Below, one piece after another: positions 6,021 to 60,362 of a stretch of DNA of 64,000 bases (its first letter is position 1; each line of letters opens with the position of its first letter). The DNA lies in NCBI RefSeq assembly GCF_024436435.1, contig NZ_JAFMZP010000008.1, positions 62,001 through 126,000 on the forward strand, read 5' to 3'. The stretch is from Desertivirga xinjiangensis. GTDB taxonomy: Bacteria > Bacteroidota > Bacteroidia > Sphingobacteriales > Sphingobacteriaceae. The position numbers and the translations under genes are program-made. The notes under the pieces are model-generated. The model was not told the DNA's origin. It ran no database searches and worked only from the letters and a program-made list of their open reading frames with translations.

Positions 6021-6218
6021 ATCTTTTTGTATTTGCTGAAATAACGTTAAAGGAGATTTCTGGTAATCTTGATTTAATAAATTAAATCTTTTTGTACTTG
6101 CTGAAATAATGTTAAAGGAGATTTTTGGTAATCTGAAATCTTTTTGTACTTGCTGAAATAACATTAAAGGAGATTTCTGGTAATCTTAATTTAATAAATT
6201 AATTCTTTTTGTACTTTT
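5971..6218 (+). repeat. Tandem repeat of the tolC 3' end, four copies
   Basis: The unit begins ctgaaataacgttaaaggag and starts at 5971, 6036, 6101 and 6153. The period is 65, 65, then 52, because the third copy lacks 13 bases. Copy 1 contains the end of the TolC-like gene and its TAA. Copies 2 to 4 are non-coding, with a few point changes and an A/T-rich tail (ctttttgta). The last copy ends in TACTTTTA (6212-6219), close to a Bacteroidota -7 element, and may serve as promoter for the next gene. Slipped-strand duplication is the simplest origin. Confidence 0.9.
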
Positions 6219-6284
6219 AGCAAAAGTTTATAGAACCTTAAGTAATTCGGCGCGTATAATGTCACCAGAAAGCCGGGGATAAAT

Positions 6285-6674
6285 ATGAGGGATTCAAAAT
6301 ATAGATCTGTTTTGTTGATTGATGATAGTTACATCGACAATCTGATTAATCGCAAGATATTAGAAAACTGTATGTTTGCTGATGATGTTGTGGTTATGGA
6401 TTCCCCTGTTGCAGCGATTGAGTATTTAAACAAATGCTACAATGAGCAAACCTTGCCGGAGGTGATTTTTCTGGATATTCGTATGCCTGAAATGAACGGA
6501 TTCGAGTTTTTACAAAAATTAAAAGAGATAACTACCGAAGACAGTAAACTTAAAATTTTTGTTCTTTCGTCATCTTTGGATCCTAGTGACCTTAGAAGGG
6601 TTGAAGGTAACAGTCTTGTAACCAAATTTATTGGGAAACCACTAACGGTTAGTGTTCTTGAAGATATAAGATAA
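6285..6674 (+). CDS. Stand-alone response regulator receiver protein
   Basis: A 129-residue single REC domain with no output domain. The acidic pocket is in LLIDDSY near residue 12. The phosphoacceptor Asp is in FLDIRMPEMNGF around residue 63, the conserved Ser is in VLSSS near 96, and Lys is in IGKPL near 119. It would pass a phosphoryl signal by protein-protein contact or phosphotransfer. No histidine kinase is adjacent. Its stop codon overlaps the start of the next gene (TAATG), so the two are translationally linked. Confidence 0.88.
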   Translation: MRDSKYRSVLLIDDSYIDNLINRKILENCMFADDVVVMDSPVAAIEYLNKCYNEQTLPEVIFLDIRMPEMNGFEFLQKLKEITTEDSKLKIFVLSSSLDPSDLRRVEGNSLVTKFIGKPLTVSVLEDIR

Positions 6675-7519
6675 TGATTTTAATTGCCGATAGCGGTTCA
6701 ACTAAAACAGACTGGATATTAAAATTTAACGACTCTGAGTACCTTGAATTTACCACTAAAGGAATAAATCCTTATTTTGTTAATGATAAGGAAATTTGTA
6801 AGGTATTGTCGGCCTATGACGAGATCCAGGAATTTAACTCCCGCATAAAAGAGGTGCATTTTTTTGGAGAGGGCTGCTCTACGCCCGATAAAAGGGAGAT
6901 AGTGTCAAACGGCCTTTCGAAGGTTTTTTCTAAAGCGTATATAAACGTTGAAAATGACGCATTAGGTTCCGCATATGCTACTTGTGGCAATAGCAGTGGG
7001 TTCACATGTATCTTAGGAACATCCTCCAATATCGCCTTTTATAATGGAAAGGAAGTTCAGGAAAGTGTTCATGGGCTTGGTTTTATTCTGGGAGATGAAG
7101 GATCTGGTACCTATTTTGGCAGGGCACTGATTACTTCCTGTTTATACGATACGATGCCTGCAGGCCTAAAGGCGTCATTTTTGAAAGAATATCCTATCTC
7201 AAAAGACAGTATCATTAAGAATGTCTATCAGGAGCCGCTTCCTAATTTTTATATTGCTTCTTTCAGTAAGTTCCTTAGTGGGCACCGTTCTGAACCGTTT
7301 GTTGAAGACCTATTATATAAGGGCTTTGATTTATTTATAAATTCTCATTTATTGCCTTATCCCGGACATCAATCTCACCCCTGTCATTTTGTAGGTTCTA
7401 TTGCTTATTATTTTCAGGACGTATTGGCTTCTGTTTGTTCTGCGTATAGAATTAAAATGGGGAAGGTCTTGTCTAAACCTATAAGAGATCTAGCCGATTT
7501 CATCATAAAGAAATCTTAG
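6674..7519 (+). CDS. BadF/BadG/BcrA/BcrD-type ATPase, N-acetylglucosamine kinase-like
   Basis: A 281-residue member of the actin/Hsp70/sugar-kinase fold. The N-terminal phosphate-1 motif is ADSGSTKTDW (residues 4-13), and the second phosphate motif is the CILGTSSNIAFY region near 110-121. GFILGDEGSGTYFG near 136-149 is typical of the GlcNAc-kinase-like branch. The likely role is phosphorylation of an amino sugar during cell-wall recycling. That would fit the N-acetylmuramic acid 6-phosphate etherase encoded at 40.8 kb, but this link is inference. It overlaps the upstream response regulator by one base. Confidence 0.82.
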   Translation: MILIADSGSTKTDWILKFNDSEYLEFTTKGINPYFVNDKEICKVLSAYDEIQEFNSRIKEVHFFGEGCSTPDKREIVSNGLSKVFSKAYINVENDALGSAYATCGNSSGFTCILGTSSNIAFYNGKEVQESVHGLGFILGDEGSGTYFGRALITSCLYDTMPAGLKASFLKEYPISKDSIIKNVYQEPLPNFYIASFSKFLSGHRSEPFVEDLLYKGFDLFINSHLLPYPGHQSHPCHFVGSIAYYFQDVLASVCSAYRIKMGKVLSKPIRDLADFIIKKS

Positions 7520-51897: not shown

Positions 51898-54525
51898 ATG
51901 AATACAAACAATCATAGTAGCAAAATCAAAAGAATGGCTACTACCACAAAGTTGAAGTCAGCAAAAGGAAGCGACGAACAAGACCACCTTTTCACGTTCG
52001 TATTCTCTTTATTAATTATCCTCACGTTAATACTTCATGCAAGCACATCCTTTGCTCAGGACAGCGTTATCGTGAAAGCTCATGCCTCGTATAACAAACC
52101 AGGGAAGTTTCACCGGAAACTATTCGGTGAGAACTATCGTGAAGAATGGGCTGCAGACACCAAGGTTCCAATAATAAAAATCTCAGAGCTTAATGGAGGC
52201 CTTACCCCCACCAGACGCGGGGGTGGGCATCAAAGTCATTCACTCCGGCTTAAGGATAAGCAGGGCAAGGAATACGTACTTCGAAGCGTAGAGAAATACC
52301 CGGAGGTTTTAATCCCGGAAGTAATCAGAAATACTTTTGCAAAAGACTGGGTAGACGATAATATGTCGGCGCAGCACCCCTACGCAGCTCTAATAGTACC
52401 GGTTCTAGCGAAGGCAACGGGAGTGCCTCATACAAATCCAGTTGTTGGATTGGTAGCTCCAGACCCCGCACTTGGTGAATTTGCTTCCACTTTTGAAAAC
52501 ACGCTAGTCCTTTTAGAAGAAAGAGAACCGCTCGGGAAATCAGACAACACACCAGAAATGTTTGCCGCTCTGGATGAAGACAGTGGCAACAAGGTAGAGG
52601 CCGAAGGCTTTCTGAGAGCGACATTGCTGGATATATTGATCGGCGACTGGGACCGGCACGTGGACCAATGGAGATGGAAAGATATCCAGGAGGGTAAAGG
52701 GAAAAAATACATCGCCGTTCCCCGGGATCGTGATCAGGTATTCTACTTGAATCAAGGTCTGTTCCCTAACCTGGCCTCGCGCTCATGGCTTCTGCCTTTT
52801 CTTCAGGGTTACGACCATGAGGTAAGGAACATCAATACCTATCTCTGGGAAAGCCGGCTGATGGTGTCAAGAATACTAAACGAGATGAGCTATGAAGAGT
52901 GGATGAGGATTACCAGCGAGTTCGTTTCGGCTGTGCCCGATGAGGTGCTGGAAACTTCTTTACGACGTTTACCTGCATCATCTTACGAACTCCGCCACGA
53001 TGAATTGTTGTCTAAAATGAGAAGTCAACGATCCAGGCTATTAGAAGAGTCAGAAAAATTCTACTTCTTCCTTAACGAGATCGTAGAGGTAAAAGCTTCA
53101 GACAAGAACGAACAGATTAAGTTTAGCGGCAACAACAAACAACTAACATTGGAGATATTCCGGCTAAAAGCACAGGGGGACAAACAACTGGTTTTTAGCA
53201 AAACGATGGACCCGCAGGTTACTAAAGAGGTTTGGGTATATACAGGAAAAGGCGCAGATAACATCAGTATCAATACAAAATCCTCCATTCAGATTCGACT
53301 CATAGCAGCAGACGGTGAAAAAGTCTTCGATGCGCAGCAATCGACCAGGAAAGTGCGAGTATTTGCCAGAGAAACTAACGTAACTTTCAGGGATACCAAC
53401 AACGTGTTCAGGACTCGCTTATCAAACGATTCTTCACACTCAAGATACATTCCTATAAACCGCTATAATATTAACATGCCTCTTGTAAGTGGCGGCTATA
53501 ACCAGGATGATGGATTCATGTTAGGCTTGGGAATAAAGCATAAGCGTACAGGCTTCCGTAAATTGCCCTACGCCAGCGAACACCAGTTTAGTGTGTCCCG
53601 GTCCTTTTCAACACGTGCTTTTAAAGTAAGATATAGTGGCGACTGGACCGATGTTGTCGGAAAGGCTAACTTTTTCGTAAACGCTTCAGTTCTGGGCCCG
53701 AATAACACCATAAACTTTTATGGCCGCGGTAACGAAACCCAGAGATTGAAGGGAAGCCGTTCTGATCTTTTTTATAGGGCCAGGTTCAACCAGGTACAGC
53801 TTGAAAGTGGCCTAAAGTGGGACCTTGATAATCGGCTTAGTATAAGTACCGGAGCTACTTTTCAATACTATTCCTATCAGGTTTCAGATAACACAGGCCG
53901 CTTTATAACTGAATCAGGCGCTGTTGGTTCTTACGATAGTTTAAGCCTTAACAAAGACAAGCTGCATACAGGCTTGAGTGTAAATTTGAGCAGAGATACG
54001 CGCAGCAACCAGATACTACCCAGCTTTGGAAGCTATTTAAAAATTGGTATTCAAGGCTCGACAGGGCTTAATAGAAATTCCAGGTCTTTCATACAAATCA
54101 AACCAGAATTTAGATTTTATCGAAAACTTTCAAAAGACTCCAGTTTGGTGCTTGCAGAACGCGTGGGAGCTGGTCTAACGCTTGGGAATACAGCCTTCTA
54201 CCAATCAATGTTCCTCGGCGGCCATGATAATCTTTACGGTTTTCGGCAGTACAGGTTCGCCGGTCAGCATCTATTTTATAACAACCTCGACCTGCGCTTG
54301 AGATTAGCCCGGTTGGCCAGCTATATTCTACCTGGGGAAATCGGAATCAATGCGTTTTACGACATCGGCCGGGTTTGGGAGAAGGGAGAGAAATCCAGCA
54401 AATGGCACCAGGGCTATGGCGGCGGCGCTTATTTTTCGCCCGCGAACTATGCAGTCATCCAATTGATTGGGGGGCACTCCTCCGAAGGCTGGTACCCCTA
54501 TTTAAAACTTAACATGCGTTTCTAA
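51898..54525 (+). CDS. Outer-membrane BamA/surface-antigen-like barrel with kinase-like N-terminal domain
   Basis: An 875-residue protein. A hydrophobic export segment is at about 33-50 (LLIILTLILHASTSFAQ). Residues of about 85-330 hold motifs that recall the atypical kinases FAM20C/HipA: GGGHQSHSLRL (108-118), a candidate ATP lysine in YVLRSVEK (126-133), the catalytic-loop-like GDWDRHVDQW (249-258) and PRDRDQVF (275 onward). A middle beta domain and a C-terminal BamA-like barrel (about 530-875, ending in a terminal Phe) follow. It is the first gene of an operon with HD-PycTM and ppk1 genes. The barrel call is firm; the kinase reading is inference. Confidence 0.8.
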   Translation: MNTNNHSSKIKRMATTTKLKSAKGSDEQDHLFTFVFSLLIILTLILHASTSFAQDSVIVKAHASYNKPGKFHRKLFGENYREEWAADTKVPIIKISELNGGLTPTRRGGGHQSHSLRLKDKQGKEYVLRSVEKYPEVLIPEVIRNTFAKDWVDDNMSAQHPYAALIVPVLAKATGVPHTNPVVGLVAPDPALGEFASTFENTLVLLEEREPLGKSDNTPEMFAALDEDSGNKVEAEGFLRATLLDILIGDWDRHVDQWRWKDIQEGKGKKYIAVPRDRDQVFYLNQGLFPNLASRSWLLPFLQGYDHEVRNINTYLWESRLMVSRILNEMSYEEWMRITSEFVSAVPDEVLETSLRRLPASSYELRHDELLSKMRSQRSRLLEESEKFYFFLNEIVEVKASDKNEQIKFSGNNKQLTLEIFRLKAQGDKQLVFSKTMDPQVTKEVWVYTGKGADNISINTKSSIQIRLIAADGEKVFDAQQSTRKVRVFARETNVTFRDTNNVFRTRLSNDSSHSRYIPINRYNINMPLVSGGYNQDDGFMLGLGIKHKRTGFRKLPYASEHQFSVSRSFSTRAFKVRYSGDWTDVVGKANFFVNASVLGPNNTINFYGRGNETQRLKGSRSDLFYRARFNQVQLESGLKWDLDNRLSISTGATFQYYSYQVSDNTGRFITESGAVGSYDSLSLNKDKLHTGLSVNLSRDTRSNQILPSFGSYLKIGIQGSTGLNRNSRSFIQIKPEFRFYRKLSKDSSLVLAERVGAGLTLGNTAFYQSMFLGGHDNLYGFRQYRFAGQHLFYNNLDLRLRLARLASYILPGEIGINAFYDIGRVWEKGEKSSKWHQGYGGGAYFSPANYAVIQLIGGHSSEGWYPYLKLNMRF

Positions 54526-54542
54526 CCTCAACAAGCAATATC

Positions 54543-55736
54543 ATGAACTACACCATACTACTTGAACAAATAAAAGAACACGTTACTGGTCTGTACAGGC
54601 TGAACGAGACCTCTAATCTCGTCTACCATAACTTATATCATACCGAAAAAATAGTTGCAAACGCCGGAATACTCAGCGAAAGCTACCAACTTGGACAAAA
54701 GGAAAGGTTTATTGTTGCGGCAGCCGCATGGTTTCACGACATCGGATACCTGTTTAACCCGGCTAATCATGAAACCGAGGGTGCTGAACGGGCTGAAAAG
54801 TTCCTGCTGGCTAAAGCAGTAGATCCGGAAATTACGCTTCAAGTAAAAAACGCAATCCTCGCCACCAAGCTGCCTCAGCTCGCAAATACAACAGTAGAAA
54901 AGATCGTAGCAGATGCCGACCTTTTTCATCTGGGTACACCCGAATTTGCCGACTTGAACAAACTCGTTCGCAAAGAAGCAGAGATGCTGTATGGTCAATC
55001 TATCAATAAAGAAGAATGGTTAAAGAGAACAGTGGTATTCCTGCAAAACCATGAATTCCAAACAGAATATGCCCGGAAACACTTGTCTGAACAAAAACAG
55101 CAAAATCTTAGTTCCCTGATAAAGAGACTGGAAAAGAAAGGGGGCTTGCCTGCTCTAGTGTCTCCCTTTGAACATGAGGAGGCCTCCCCGGAAAGGATCA
55201 GGGAAGACAAACCAACAAAAGGTATAGAGACTATGTTTAGGATCAGTTCACAGAACCATCAACGCCTCAGTGATATGGCTGACAACAAAGCGAACATCAT
55301 CATAACCGTTAACTCCATAATCCTTTCTGCTGTTCTAAGTTTCCTGATACAAAAGATCGACTCTGAAGTTTACCTTGCCTATCCCACTTACACTATACTA
55401 ATGGTAAGCCTCACTGCTATCATCTTTGCCATCCTTTCAACAAGACCGGCTATCACCCGCGGGCTGTTTAGTACTCAGGAGGTGGATCAAAAAAAGGCGA
55501 ACCTGTTGTTTTTTGGAAACTTTCATAGAATGAGCCTCGAAAACTATGCATCCTCTATGCAGGTGGCCATGGACGATAAACAATACCTCTACGGGATGCT
55601 GATAAAAGACCTCCATTCTCAGGGAGTGGTGCTCGGGAAAAAATACCGCCTGCTCAGAATCTCTTACAACGTCTTTATGTATGGTTTGATAGTTTCGGTT
55701 ATCTCTTTTTTAATTGCCTCATTAATATTTTCTTAA
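54543..55736 (+). CDS. HD-domain phosphohydrolase fused to PycTM (DUF5706) membrane domain
   Basis: A 397-residue fusion. Residues 20-190 form an HD domain with the metal ligands His33, His65-Asp66, His76 and Asp124 or Asp126 (YHTEKIV, WFHDIGY, ADADLFH). A linker leads to a PycTM-type domain at about 228-397: MADNKANIIITVNSIILS, two membrane helices, the SLENYASSMQ segment and a final helix. PycTM is the membrane effector domain of Pycsar anti-phage systems, but no nucleotide cyclase gene is nearby. It is 17 bases after the BamA-like gene and 9 bases before ppk1. Confidence 0.85.
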   Translation: MNYTILLEQIKEHVTGLYRLNETSNLVYHNLYHTEKIVANAGILSESYQLGQKERFIVAAAAWFHDIGYLFNPANHETEGAERAEKFLLAKAVDPEITLQVKNAILATKLPQLANTTVEKIVADADLFHLGTPEFADLNKLVRKEAEMLYGQSINKEEWLKRTVVFLQNHEFQTEYARKHLSEQKQQNLSSLIKRLEKKGGLPALVSPFEHEEASPERIREDKPTKGIETMFRISSQNHQRLSDMADNKANIIITVNSIILSAVLSFLIQKIDSEVYLAYPTYTILMVSLTAIIFAILSTRPAITRGLFSTQEVDQKKANLLFFGNFHRMSLENYASSMQVAMDDKQYLYGMLIKDLHSQGVVLGKKYRLLRISYNVFMYGLIVSVISFLIASLIFS

Positions 55737-55745
55737 GCATTTTTT

Positions 55746-57812
55746 ATGAACTCTCCCATGTCTTCGTTTTTCAATCGTGATATCAGCTGGTTGTCTTTCA
55801 ACGAACGCTTATTAACAGAAGCCGCAAAAGAGCATTTGCCTCTGCTCGAACGCTTGAAGTTTCTCTCTATATTCTCATCAAATCTGGACGAATTTTACCG
55901 CGTGAGAATGCCTGCCATCCGCGCCCTCCATCGCTTGAACAAGAAAAAGCAGGATAAGCAAGAGGTGATGTCACTTCCGGATGTCATCGAGGAGGTGAAT
56001 GAGACAATCAAAAATCACCAGCAACAATTTGGCGGGATTCTGTCACAACTTCTTCCATCGCTAAAAGAGTCAGGAGTTCAGCTAATTTATAACGAAGAGA
56101 TTCCTTTTCCCGTTCAAGAGGCTGCCAGCGATTATTTTTTCAGCCACTTACTTGCTTACCTGCATATCGTGGAGCTTACTAAAGACAGCTCGTTTTTCCC
56201 CGAGAACAACAAGTTGTATCAGCTCCTTATAGCGAAGCAAGAAACAAGGGAAGAAAGCCTTTATCTTGTTAACATACCATCCGATAGCCTTCCTAGATTT
56301 ATCAGTCTGAATGTTGATAATAAAGACTACATTCTCTTTATCGACGATATTCTGCGGCACAACCTTCGAAAGCTCCCGCAATTCTCCGGGCTTTCACATA
56401 TCTATTCTATGAAAGTGACACGTGACGCCGAATTGGAAATAGCAGATGAATATGAAGGAGACCTGGCTGAAAAGATAGAAAGGCAAATAGAAAAAAGGGA
56501 TTTCGGCTTTGCTACCCGACTTCTGTACGAAGGGGGAATGCCTCAGGAATACCTCGAGCAGGTAACTGCGATTCTAAAGCTTGAAAAAGCGACGCTGGTA
56601 GAAGGCGGCAGATACCATAATCTCAAAGATTTTTCAGATCTTCCTTTGAAGACCCCTTCTCTGTTCTATGAAAAGTGGTCGCCACTAGCTGTTAACGTCC
56701 CTCAGGGTAAAAGCCTGTTTGATAGCATCCAGGAACAGGATATCCTTATAAACAACCCCTATCAATCCTATGATTCAGTGATAAGATTCTTTAACGAAGC
56801 CGCTGTTAATCCGGATGTTGAAAATATTTACATCACAGTTTACCGCCTGGCTACTGATTCAAGAATAGCGAGTGCCCTAATAACGGCAGCAAAAAACGGA
56901 AAGAAAGTTTCAGTATTCGTAGAGCTTAAGGCCAGGTTTGACGAAGCAAACAATATCAAGTGGTCTAAGAAAATGAAGGCAGCCGGAATTAAAATCATCT
57001 ACAGTATTCCTACCCTGAAAGTCCACGCAAAAATTGCCTTAGTTACCCGGAAGAATGCACCGGCTCTGGGTATTTTCTCCACCGGAAACTTCAACGAAGT
57101 AACAGCGGCATTCTATACCGACCACGTACTTCTTACAGCCAATCACTCCCTGCTCGCAGAGGTAGAACAACTGTTTTACTTTCTGGAAAAGCGCAGGAAG
57201 CCAACAGGCCAGGATAACATTCATTTCAAACATCTCCTTGTGGCACAATTCAATCTCAAAGACCATTTTACACAGCTCATCGAACGGGAGATTGAAAACG
57301 CTTCAAAAGGATTAGAGTCAGGCATCACTATAAAGCTAAACAATCTTGAAGAAGAGAAAATGATATCTCTTCTTTATAAGGCCTCCCAGGCTGGTGTGAA
57401 AATCAAGCTCATAGTCAGAGGTATTTGCAGGCTTATTCCTGGCGTAGCCGGATTAAGCGAAAACATAAGCGTGATACGTATCATCGACCGTTATCTGGAA
57501 CATGGCCGCGTTTTTATTTTCTCGAACAACGGAAACACAGAGATGTACCTAGGATCTGCCGATTGGATGTACCGCAACATTTACCGTCGCATTGAGGTTT
57601 GTTTCCCTATTTACGATGTTGCCATTGCACAAACTCTTTTGAACTTGATCAATATCCAACTTCAAGACAATGTACAGGCAGTAAGTATAGATAGCCATGG
57701 AAAAAACTTACCCGTAGAGAATGGAACTGCGCGCACCAGCTCACAAGAGAAGATTTATCAAGCGCTTAAAATTCAGGCCGAAGCAGCACCGGTACCTGTA
57801 GTACCGCTCTAG
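55746..57812 (+). CDS. ppk1: Polyphosphate kinase 1
   Basis: A 688-residue PPK1. The N-terminal helical domain has NRDISWLSFNERLLTEA near 8-25. SNLDEFYRVRMP lies near 45 and QSYDSVIRFFNEAA near 340. The catalytic His is near 426 in KVHAKIALV, and the second PLD-like half carries VRGICRLIPG and the HGRVFIFSNN motif. It makes long-chain polyphosphate from ATP. As the third gene of the operon it should be co-regulated with the HD-PycTM and outer-membrane proteins. Confidence 0.96.
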   Translation: MNSPMSSFFNRDISWLSFNERLLTEAAKEHLPLLERLKFLSIFSSNLDEFYRVRMPAIRALHRLNKKKQDKQEVMSLPDVIEEVNETIKNHQQQFGGILSQLLPSLKESGVQLIYNEEIPFPVQEAASDYFFSHLLAYLHIVELTKDSSFFPENNKLYQLLIAKQETREESLYLVNIPSDSLPRFISLNVDNKDYILFIDDILRHNLRKLPQFSGLSHIYSMKVTRDAELEIADEYEGDLAEKIERQIEKRDFGFATRLLYEGGMPQEYLEQVTAILKLEKATLVEGGRYHNLKDFSDLPLKTPSLFYEKWSPLAVNVPQGKSLFDSIQEQDILINNPYQSYDSVIRFFNEAAVNPDVENIYITVYRLATDSRIASALITAAKNGKKVSVFVELKARFDEANNIKWSKKMKAAGIKIIYSIPTLKVHAKIALVTRKNAPALGIFSTGNFNEVTAAFYTDHVLLTANHSLLAEVEQLFYFLEKRRKPTGQDNIHFKHLLVAQFNLKDHFTQLIEREIENASKGLESGITIKLNNLEEEKMISLLYKASQAGVKIKLIVRGICRLIPGVAGLSENISVIRIIDRYLEHGRVFIFSNNGNTEMYLGSADWMYRNIYRRIEVCFPIYDVAIAQTLLNLINIQLQDNVQAVSIDSHGKNLPVENGTARTSSQEKIYQALKIQAEAAPVPVVPL

Positions 57813-58058: not shown

Positions 58059-60362
58059 ATGAGAACCGAAATTTACGATCTGAAGATTATCGACAAGCAA
58101 TTAAGCGCATTTGGAACCGAACTTACTTTCCGTCCCTTTATCGAATTCCTGAAAGAACGAATGAAGGAAGAATCAGTAAAAAGTGCTGTGTACCAAAACC
58201 TGGTATGGAAGTTTGAAAATGAACTTTCAGGTGCAGGGATTGACATACATGAGTCTGAAATGTATAAGGAGTTTTTGGATCTTGTTTACATGGTACTTAC
58301 ACCACTTGCTTCGAGTGAAGCCTCTCATCTTTGGGCTCTCAGTACCCCTGTTCCTTCAAAGATCTTCTATAGCACGAATGCCTTCGCCGACTTCCATATT
58401 TCTGAGACAGCTTGCTCGCTTGAAGGGGTTTTCGATACTAAATCGCTATTTTCCATTTCGCAAAAAGCGTTCATCTATCGCTTGGCCCTGAACAGGTTTT
58501 ATGATATTGATGCAGGACTTAGCAGCGAAAGTTTTATACAGGGAAAGCATCCCGAAACTGGTCAGCCCCTGTATTATAAGCTACATGTCGACACTCGCTT
58601 TATTCACATCGCCTATCATGGAACGCTTCCGGAACTGAACCGAAGCTTATTCGAGACAGGATTACTTAATCAGAAGGAAGAAGAATACCTGGAAGAGGAG
58701 CTGCCCTTATCTATGATTGAATTAAGCGGCTTTTCCATACTTGAGTTCACAGATGTTACAGCTCAGCATGCGGTAGAAAATTTAAAAGATTATTTGGTTG
58801 ACCAAACGGGCAATCCGGATTTCAAACAAGTAAACATCTCTCTGCAAAACTTGATCGGAAGTATGGACATAAACTTTGGTTTTATTCCATTTGCCAGATT
58901 AAATGGTCGTGCGGTTTACTTGCCTGAACGCAGCCACACAAGTGTTTTGCTGGCGCTAGCGAACCGCGAAGCTTTTGAAAGGCTGGTGCAGCATTATGAA
59001 AAGAATACAGATATAGCAATTTATCAGAAAGCCGCTGACCAAGCAACGTCCATGCCCTTTTTATTCAATATTCTCGATGATGCTCACATTCAGACCTATG
59101 TGCTTGTCCCGGTAGTTCAAAACAAAAACCTCCTCGGACTTCTGGAACTTCATTCTACAAAGGAGTTAAGTTTCACAAGAGCCATCCTATCGCGATTACA
59201 GCCTGCTATGCCCTATCTAACACAGTTAATGCAGCAGATTATCCAGGACTTCGAGAACTCCATCGAGCATGTGATTCATGAGAAGTTTACTTCCCTTAAA
59301 TCGGCCGTAAAGTGGAAGTTTAATGAGGCAGCCTGGCAGTATCTTCAGGACAGCGCAACTTCCGGGTTGAAGCCAGTTCCCCGAGTGAGCTTTCAACAAG
59401 TGTATCCCATTTACGGTGCAATAGATGTGAGGCACTCAACCCAGGAAAGAAATGAGGCGGTTTTCCTGGATTCAAGCGTCCATATCAGATGGATAGAAAA
59501 AACTTTAGACGCCTTGAAAGAATACTTGAAAGAAGAAGAACAAACGCAGCTGATAGAAAAGCGGATTAGCTGGGACAACGTGTTCAAATCCTATTTCGAA
59601 ACCAAAGATGAATTTAAATTAGTCCAGCTTATTCAAAGTGAAATAAATCCCTACTTTGATCAGATATACCATCGGTCTGCAGATACAGATCTGACAATAG
59701 ATGCATACTTTGCTGCATCCTCCTCTCAAACTGGAATAGTATATCGAAACAGGAGAGAACTGGAACTTTCCATGCAAAGAATCAACGATCAGATCAGCGT
59801 CAATCTGCTCGCTAGCCAAAAGGAGCTTCAACAGCTCTTTCCTCATTACTTCGAAAAGTTTAGAACAGACGGTGTAGAATACGACATCTACATGGGGCAA
59901 TCCATTGCTCCAGAGCAAAACTTCGAACAACATCATATAAGGACGGTAAGACTATGGCAATTGAAAAACATGGCCGAGATTGGCGCCTCGCTCAGAAATC
60001 TTAAACCCCATCTGCCAAAACCACTAAGTACCACACAACTCATTTATGTGCATTCTTCGCCAATTGATATCACCTTTAGAGACGATGAGAAACTCTTTGA
60101 TGTTGAAGGCGGGTATAGCATACGCTATGAAATTGTAAAGAAGCGAATTGATAAAGTACTTATAAAAGGTACCGGGGAACGACTTACTCAGCCAGAAAAA
60201 ATTGCAATAGTTTATATGAATGATGTAGAAAAGGAGGAATACCTGGACTATATCAGAGAGCTACAGGACCTTGAGGTGTTGAGGGATGACTTAGAATTGC
60301 TCGATCTTGAGGACTTACAGGGGGTAACAGGATTGAAGGCCTTCCGTATGGGAATTTCTTAA
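58059..60362 (+). CDS. GAF-domain protein of unknown function
   Basis: A 767-residue soluble protein with no signal peptide or membrane helix. A GAF-like domain is likely around 325-405 (IQTYVLVPVVQNKNLLGLLELH), preceded by an unassigned N-terminal region and followed by about 350 residues of mixed helical sequence. There is no histidine kinase, GGDEF or other known output motif. The family occurs in Bacteroidota without a known role. It has its own operator and -7 element, so it is a separate member of the regulon between ppk1 and the Crp/Fnr regulator gene. Confidence 0.75.
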   Translation: MRTEIYDLKIIDKQLSAFGTELTFRPFIEFLKERMKEESVKSAVYQNLVWKFENELSGAGIDIHESEMYKEFLDLVYMVLTPLASSEASHLWALSTPVPSKIFYSTNAFADFHISETACSLEGVFDTKSLFSISQKAFIYRLALNRFYDIDAGLSSESFIQGKHPETGQPLYYKLHVDTRFIHIAYHGTLPELNRSLFETGLLNQKEEEYLEEELPLSMIELSGFSILEFTDVTAQHAVENLKDYLVDQTGNPDFKQVNISLQNLIGSMDINFGFIPFARLNGRAVYLPERSHTSVLLALANREAFERLVQHYEKNTDIAIYQKAADQATSMPFLFNILDDAHIQTYVLVPVVQNKNLLGLLELHSTKELSFTRAILSRLQPAMPYLTQLMQQIIQDFENSIEHVIHEKFTSLKSAVKWKFNEAAWQYLQDSATSGLKPVPRVSFQQVYPIYGAIDVRHSTQERNEAVFLDSSVHIRWIEKTLDALKEYLKEEEQTQLIEKRISWDNVFKSYFETKDEFKLVQLIQSEINPYFDQIYHRSADTDLTIDAYFAASSSQTGIVYRNRRELELSMQRINDQISVNLLASQKELQQLFPHYFEKFRTDGVEYDIYMGQSIAPEQNFEQHHIRTVRLWQLKNMAEIGASLRNLKPHLPKPLSTTQLIYVHSSPIDITFRDDEKLFDVEGGYSIRYEIVKKRIDKVLIKGTGERLTQPEKIAIVYMNDVEKEEYLDYIRELQDLEVLRDDLELLDLEDLQGVTGLKAFRMGIS

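Follow-up and report, generated by a model that had tools for sequence, protein, structure and literature searches.

A predicted kinase-like domain on an Omp85-type outer-membrane protein of Desertivirga xinjiangensis and its relatives in Bacteroidota

We analyzed a 64,000-nucleotide stretch of Desertivirga xinjiangensis DNA (contig NZ_JAFMZP010000008.1, positions 62,001 to 126,000 of the forward strand), here called the window. It contains a plus-strand gene for an 875-amino-acid protein in which a barrel of the Omp85 type follows a predicted kinase-like domain. The parts of the gene, in window coordinates, are as follows.

51898..54525, plus strand: whole gene, 875 amino acids; export-like segment, predicted kinase-like domain, beta-rich segment, and Omp85 barrel (open reading frame, Omp85 Pfam match, and structure model)
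51898..52059, plus strand: residues 1-54, N-terminal export-like segment with the hydrophobic stretch FTFVFSLLIILTLILHASTSFAQ (read by eye from the sequence)
52066..53079, plus strand: residues 57-394, predicted kinase-like domain (from the AlphaFold2 model of 57-510, whose first 338 residues are covered by PDB matches)
52219..52239, plus strand: residues 108-114, the Gly-rich GGGHQSH turn that joins strands 1 and 2 of the domain (model 47-52 and 59-63)
52273..52296, plus strand: residues 126-133, YVLRSVEK, which forms the third strand and contains R129 and K133 (strand at model 69-74)
52642..52671, plus strand: residues 249-258, catalytic-loop candidate GDWDRHVDQW with D252 and Q257 (after the helix at model 179-192; it aligns with the corresponding loops of HipA_C and CotH)
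52720..52737, plus strand: residues 275-280, metal-site candidate PRDRDQ with D277 and D279 (after the strand at model 212-219; aligned with iPyDyDntfG of CotH)
53080..53430, plus strand: residues 395-511, beta-rich segment between the kinase-like domain and the barrel (strands at model 339-453)
53470..54522, plus strand: residues 525-875, predicted 16-strand Omp85/BamA-type barrel (model strand count, BamA match, and PF01103)

The Omp85 part is the sole portion of the protein matched by Pfam or NCBIfam, from residue 563 and residue 620, respectively. PF01103 scores 61.2 bits against a cut-off of 24, and the only NCBIfam match, Omp85_fam, falls under that family's cut-off. The residues ahead of this part match no Pfam or NCBIfam family at E ≤ 1. 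At the same threshold the protein has no Pfam match to Fam20C (PF06702), CotH (PF08757), or HipA_C (PF07804), and so is not assigned to any of them, while a phmmer search of the PDB returned one chance match (E 3.2). An earlier, first-pass annotation had pointed to kinase-like motifs in this N-terminal part: GGGHQSHSLRL (108-118), YVLRSVEK (126-133), GDWDRHVDQW (249-258), and PRDRDQ (275-280). They are indeed present in that order, after the hydrophobic export-like segment and before the Omp85 barrel, and the numbering it gave for D252, D277, and D279 is correct.

The modeled structure points to a kinase fold. Specifically, AlphaFold2 was run on residues 57-510 with 70 rows, namely the window protein and 69 of the 84 open reading frames from 80 loci retrieved by a motif pattern, and the resulting model has a mean pLDDT of 94.8 and a pTM of 0.93. 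The fold search that the first-pass annotation had proposed was run with this model. Foldseek returned eight PDB matches at E ≤ 0.001, all of them kinases: five chains of CtkA (best 1.4e-6), PI4KIIa (1.5e-4), a chain of the HipS-HipT complex (4.1e-4), and CotH (4.6e-4); FAM20C stands at rank 30 (E 0.0082). By VIA, the best structural match is PI4KIIb (Z 15.4 over 262 residues, rmsd 4.7, 12% identity), followed by CotH (5jd9; Z 13.6, 245 residues, rmsd 4.2), CtkA (Z 13.4, 235 residues, rmsd 4.3), HipA (Z 10.8, 207 residues, rmsd 3.8), and FAM20C (4kqa; Z 10.3, 234 residues, rmsd 4.7), and the matches span model residues 1-338. An atypical kinase of the FAM20C/HipA type had been suggested. The kinase fold stood, but FAM20C ranks low, and type II PI4K is the closest match.

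The order of elements in the model fits a kinase. It begins with a strand, the Gly turn, a second strand, a strand carrying R129, a helix carrying D154, and strands ending near E207; there follow a helix, a long helix, the DRH loop, two strands, and the DRD segment. Model, Foldseek, and VIA together indicate the two-lobed fold of the protein-kinase-like superfamily. The Gly loop, basic third-strand residue, catalytic-loop Asp, and metal Asp come in the order of that superfamily, as judged from the model, conservation, and the register with CotH and HipA. Foldseek against predicted viral proteins also returned mostly kinases (best, the PI3/4-kinase domain of an uncultured phage, 6.4e-8), matches that add nothing to the function of the domain.

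Profile comparison by hhalign connects the domain with known kinases at the level of sequence. A 63-row domain profile was compared with phylum proteins that match CotH (24) or HipA_C (25). In local mode it scored 42.6 with CotH (E 2.6e-4) and 34.8 with HipA_C (E 1.2e-3), versus maxima of 19.8 and 20.0 in 60 column shuffles each (120 in total), 16.0 and 15.7 for reversed alignments, and at most 22.8 for four unrelated neighbor families. The decoys belong to local mode; in global mode the same profile gave a probability of 35 and a score of 25.8 with CotH, and 13 and 21.0 with HipA. A narrower profile of 70 members, A2, held its local score with CotH (42.2), and its global probabilities were 4.0 (CotH) and 0.2 (HipA). 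In the CotH alignment, D252 lies opposite the loop Asp, and D277 and D279 lie opposite both Asp residues of iPyDyDntfG. In the HipA alignment, D252 lies opposite the loop Asp and Q257 opposite the loop Asn. We take the paired HipA and CotH residues to be catalytic or metal residues in those proteins. Thus, the aspartates singled out by the first-pass annotation have counterparts in CotH and HipA, and the register suggests that D252, D277, and D279 would share one pocket.

Conservation among relatives carries the argument further. The similarity-found set comprises 63 distinct domains, collected with no motif filter from 63 of 69 genome matches (six were not fetched). The pattern-found set was retrieved by a DWDRH-type pattern, so its conservation of D252 is no evidence. 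Combined, the sets hold 146 distinct domains (18 of 164 having been removed as identical or contained), 140 intact and 6 degenerate. Seven key residues were scored: G109, R129, K133, E207, D252, D277, and D279. Among the 63 similarity-found domains, 52 miss none, five miss one, one misses four, four miss five, and one misses all seven, so that 57/63 keep at least six and 6/63 have lost four or more. The motif pattern is not chance, and a gap separates domains with zero to one misses from those with four to seven. Because the degenerate class is defined by motif loss, the finding itself is the gap between one miss and four. Such a distribution is what one would expect if the residues formed an active site that is occasionally inactivated.

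In intact domains, G108, G109, R129, D277, and D279 are each kept in 140/140 and K133 in 139/140, and the motif residues persist down to about 27% identity with the window domain. The first-pass annotation had offered the Lys of YVLRSVEK (K133) as a candidate ATP-binding residue; R129 is an equally good choice for the basic beta3 residue. Among the six degenerate domains, G108, G109, R129, H254, and D279 are kept in none, K133, D252, Q257, and D277 in two each, and R253 in four. Reference positions L243, W260, G287, W335, and L381 are kept in all six, G77, P161, W258, and P359 in five, and R81 in four. Joint loss of D252 and D277, seen in two of the seven domains that lack D252, has a Fisher p of 0.011 when kinship is ignored. 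On a tree of the 63 domains, five degenerate copies group (support 86/79) and the sixth (L054) stands elsewhere beside an intact copy (99/60); motif loss probably occurred at least twice, long branches permitting. The first-pass annotation had also allowed for a dead kinase acting as a binder. That is unlikely for the window copy, although degenerate relatives do exist (6/146 domains). We note that at locus L050 (G066:C79, 4476-7115) a degenerate kinase-like plus barrel gene lies directly ahead of an intact one, an arrangement reminiscent of FAM20A-FAM20C, a pseudokinase-kinase pair.

The C-terminal half was expected to be a BamA-like barrel of the 16-strand type, and the predictions agree. 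A longer model (residues 57-875, 819 residues; 58 rows, comprising the window protein and 57 of 62 candidates) has a mean pLDDT of 91.7 and a pTM of 0.85, contains 16 barrel strands when two strands of three residues are excluded, and matches the barrel of BamA (9cs2_A) with Z 26.1 over 310 residues (rmsd 3.2). Together with PF01103, the strand count places the protein in the Omp85 superfamily. The POTRA domains of BamA and TamA were not found, Omp85 being the only Pfam match of the window protein at E ≤ 1. The part before the barrel is instead predicted to be kinase-like and then all-strand, the latter segment read from model strands only. GxGxD-like stretches occur in that segment (53080-53430).

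Relatives of the domain are widespread in the phylum. A single-domain search found them in 53 of 148 genomes evenly sampled across it, and a search with profile A1 (25 rows from 37 representatives, degenerate copies left out, its invariant columns not used as evidence) found them in 114 of 296 sampled genomes and 62 of 140 genera; a few of the 114 rest on weak partial matches (G013, G034, G131, G240). The pattern scan gave at least 597 stretches, 594 of which encode relatives, and the best 80 were kept as the pattern-found loci. By genus name, we take these to be Bacteroidota, apart from one metagenome-assembled genome labelled Williamsia that is presumably mislabelled. No relative was found in the viral contigs searched. 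Five plasmid records carry one, four under genes called "hypothetical protein" and one under no gene.

The family has three architectures: kinase-like plus barrel, purple-acid-phosphatase-like plus kinase-like plus barrel, and kinase-like alone. The similarity-found set contains 34 of the phosphatase form (1198-1384 amino acids), 21 kinase-like plus barrel (852-962), and 8 kinase-like alone (423-570); the pattern-found set (n = 83) contains 41, 39, and 3, of the last three, one is cut off at a contig end (L137) and another probably results from a frameshift (L133). The 34/63 were counted as phmmer relatives of the PF00149 part of one family member (L086) and include a paralog from D. xinjiangensis itself. 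That member, of 1202 amino acids, matches PF00149 at 2e-7, resembles tartrate-resistant acid phosphatase (TRAP) at 3.3e-5, and has the Omp85 barrel too. By eye, stand-alone forms open with hydrophobic or lipobox-like segments; locus L046 (6126-11151) has three adjacent stand-alone genes, two with lipobox-like starts. D. xinjiangensis holds two further copies of the domain. One, of 857 amino acids (47% identity over query residues 32-491), has Gly at position 252 and keeps the other listed motif residues; its gene (L013, 6840-9413, minus strand) adjoins one that looks by eye like a PAP2-type phosphatase (6198-6830, minus strand). The other, of 1252 amino acids (32% over 55-477), begins with a phosphatase-like part. 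On the 63-domain tree, architecture changed at least seven times. Because the window copy groups in a clade with phosphatase-bearing relatives (closest fork support 96/79), it may have lost a phosphatase part.

Three genes downstream in the window recur beside relatives of the kinase-like gene.

54543..55736, plus strand: HD domain with PycTM membrane part (Pfam; related gene in 55/120 loci)
55746..57812, plus strand: polyphosphate kinase 1, ppk1 (TIGR03705, 663.9 bits; related gene in 28/120 loci)
58059..60362, plus strand: 767-amino-acid protein with weak GAF similarity (Pfam GAF E 0.0057, below cut-off; 41/120 loci)

The 120 loci are 40 chosen from the 69 sample matches plus the 80 pattern-found loci, with the window excluded, and neighbors were related by phmmer at E ≤ 1e-15; the loci are not independent, and some counts come from gene fragments at the ends of loci or from HD proteins of shorter length. 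The GAF-like protein is otherwise without annotation, and its relative at L086 matches GAF at 8.9e-5. In the pattern-found set, the phosphatase form (n = 41) has HD-PycTM in 29 loci, the GAF-like gene in 24, an SdiA-like propeller in 18, and ppk1 in 17, the ppk1 linkage spanning eight genus labels. Kinase-like plus barrel genes (n = 37) have the same neighbors in 8, 7, 4, and 6 loci, and stand-alone genes in none of two. ppk1 occurs in 58 of 61 genomes, in one copy in 45, and by arithmetic a random stretch of equal length would contain it less than 1% of the time. At L086 (3938-4819), an SdiA-regulated/phytase-like propeller gene (PF06977, 7.2e-9) lies between ppk1 and the phosphatase plus kinase-like plus barrel gene. 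PADLOC labels the HD-PycTM neighbor PycTM (2e-14) and gives one weak match to the kinase-like protein (PDC-M03A, 0.0061, residues 232-275). We considered a role in defense and, given the ppk1 linkage, judged housekeeping likelier. PycTM is known as a Pycsar effector part, and its fusion to an HD domain here may be a case of a defense component put to housekeeping use.

We propose that the window protein is probably an outer-membrane-anchored atypical kinase working in the cell envelope, a reading in which catalysis, orientation, donor, and substrate are extrapolated from the model and the alignments. The notion is that the C-terminal barrel would sit in the outer membrane and hold the kinase-like domain on its periplasmic side, where BamA has POTRA domains. 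Holding the phosphate donor would be the task of the Gly-rich turn and R129/K133, perhaps also of E207. Activation of the acceptor would fall to D252 in the DRH loop, and metal binding to D277/D279 together with Q257. The domain could thereby phosphorylate an envelope protein, glycan, or lipid, and in roughly half of the family the purple-acid-phosphatase-like domain of the same chain could take the phosphate off.

Several points weigh against this proposal. A shared fold proves no function, the support is computational, and some proteins with a kinase fold AMPylate or glutamylate (SelO, SidJ). The catalytic-loop Asn is replaced by Gln (Q257). No large pool of ATP is known in the periplasm, and the need for a donor beyond the cytoplasm is where the kinase reading is weakest. 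The similarity by sequence is also distant. Local hhalign probabilities are low (CotH 42%, HipA 19%), and with the A2 profile the HipA score of 19.0 lies inside the decoy range. When 25 A1 members were searched with Pfam, one member each matched Fam20C (7.8e-4), CotH (0.015), and HipA_C (0.24); because 16 unrelated families also matched, one at 0.0013, these matches alone are near chance. The 70 A2 members matched 13 Pfam families at E ≤ 0.1, no kinase family (Fam20C, CotH, and HipA_C included) among them. Finally, the degenerate copies complicate the picture. E207 and D154 may be structural, as each is retained in five of six degenerate copies. Only two of the seven domains without D252 also lack D277. 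In five of six genomes the motif-less domain is the single copy found (up to six candidates per genome scored). Since six domains lost the motifs, five as the sole copy found, the family has some role without catalysis.

That last point feeds the first alternative, namely that the domain binds a nucleotide, lipid, or polyphosphate non-catalytically and thereby regulates the barrel as an assembly or translocation factor. In its favor, the six degenerate members still exist and have kept the barrel and structural residues, and other Omp85 proteins assemble or translocate proteins, according to passages of Heinz and Lithgow (2014; PMC4104836). We nonetheless hold it unlikely: 57 of the 63 similarity-found domains keep at least six of seven key residues, and stand-alone versions have no barrel to regulate. 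Alternatively, fold and pocket could be kept for a different transfer to an envelope target, such as AMPylation or glutamylation. The fold and pocket residues would serve equally, such switches of activity are known in the superfamily, and the Gln five residues past the catalytic Asp, in place of the usual Asn, could be its mark; yet the DRH loop and DRD segment align with CotH, a phosphotransferase, and we regard this option, too, as doubtful. That short motifs on a different fold just happen to look kinase-like is very improbable: the N-terminal part has no Pfam, NCBIfam, or PDB sequence match, and CtkA, the sole kinase when A1 was searched against the PDB by hmmsearch, came at E 0.23 behind chance matches to two TatB and one Hook protein (0.12-0.16), but the fold searches and the profile comparison with decoys speak against it.

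Within the preferred reading of an envelope kinase, the ppk1 linkage makes polyphosphate a candidate donor. We speculate, giving the idea little weight, that the family is an envelope switch in which a kinase of the FAM20C/CotH type, accompanied in half of members by a TRAP-type phosphatase, draws phosphate from polyphosphate or another exported donor, not ATP. If so, the repeated ppk1 linkage would be explained. Human FAM20C and tartrate-resistant acid phosphatase act on the same secreted proteins, which offers an analogy for the form that joins kinase-like and phosphatase parts.

The domain resembles several known systems and coincides with none. It shares with CotH the kinase fold (Z 13.6) and the register of D252, D277, and D279, but the window protein has no CotH match at E ≤ 1, and a CotH protein fused to an Omp85 barrel is not known to us. 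CtkA is the top Foldseek match (1.4e-6), and D252 and Q257 fall on the loop Asp and Asn of HipA_C; the domain differs from the HipA/HipT/CtkA group in having Gln for that Asn and no HipA_C match at E ≤ 1. HipA, moreover, is cytoplasmic and acts with HipB. FAM20C, a secretory-pathway kinase, works beyond the cytoplasm and contains a DRH loop; it has the kinase fold (Z 10.3), and one of 25 relatives matches Fam20C at 7.8e-4, but its Z lies under those of PI4KII, CotH, and CtkA, the window protein has no match, and none of 118 phylum genomes passes the Fam20C cut-off. PI4K type II, a eukaryotic lipid kinase, is the best structural match (Z 15.4) at only 12% identity.

Among the titles and abstract beginnings of the search matches listed, we found no description of a kinase domain on an Omp85 protein in the open-licence literature. 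A virulence metallophosphoesterase of R. anatipestifer was reportedly described by Niu et al. in 2021. We do not equate the phosphatase form with it, as the portion of a review available lists the latter as an effector of the type IX secretion system (T9SS). In the portion of their paper available, Heinz and Lithgow (2014; PMC4104836) describe an Omp85 "Metallo" subfamily that carries PF00149, called there a metalloprotease domain; no word beginning "kinase" occurs in the text. The 1202-amino-acid relative likewise has both PF00149 and the Omp85 barrel, whereas the window copy lacks PF00149. The "Metallo" subfamily is probably the phosphatase form, its kinase-like domain having gone unnoticed. 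Likewise, "kinase" and "phosphatase" do not occur in the available part of a 2025 paper on the F. johnsoniae β-barrel assembly machinery (PMC12611786).

These analyses bring to notice an unannotated domain that was detected in 114 of the 296 genomes sampled from the phylum. Were the domain active, Bacteroidota would own a dedicated envelope kinase that is anchored in the outer membrane and in many cases shares its chain with a phosphatase, and the proteins that probably make up the "Metallo" Omp85 subfamily would gain a testable function. The findings suggest an unrecognized route for adding and removing phosphate outside the cytoplasm, and they raise the question of where the phosphate donor there comes from. 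According to the available part of a T9SS review, the kinase for the phosphorylated gingipains of P. gingivalis is unidentified (PMC10202324). An active domain would be a candidate type of enzyme for such unexplained phosphorylation of exported proteins.

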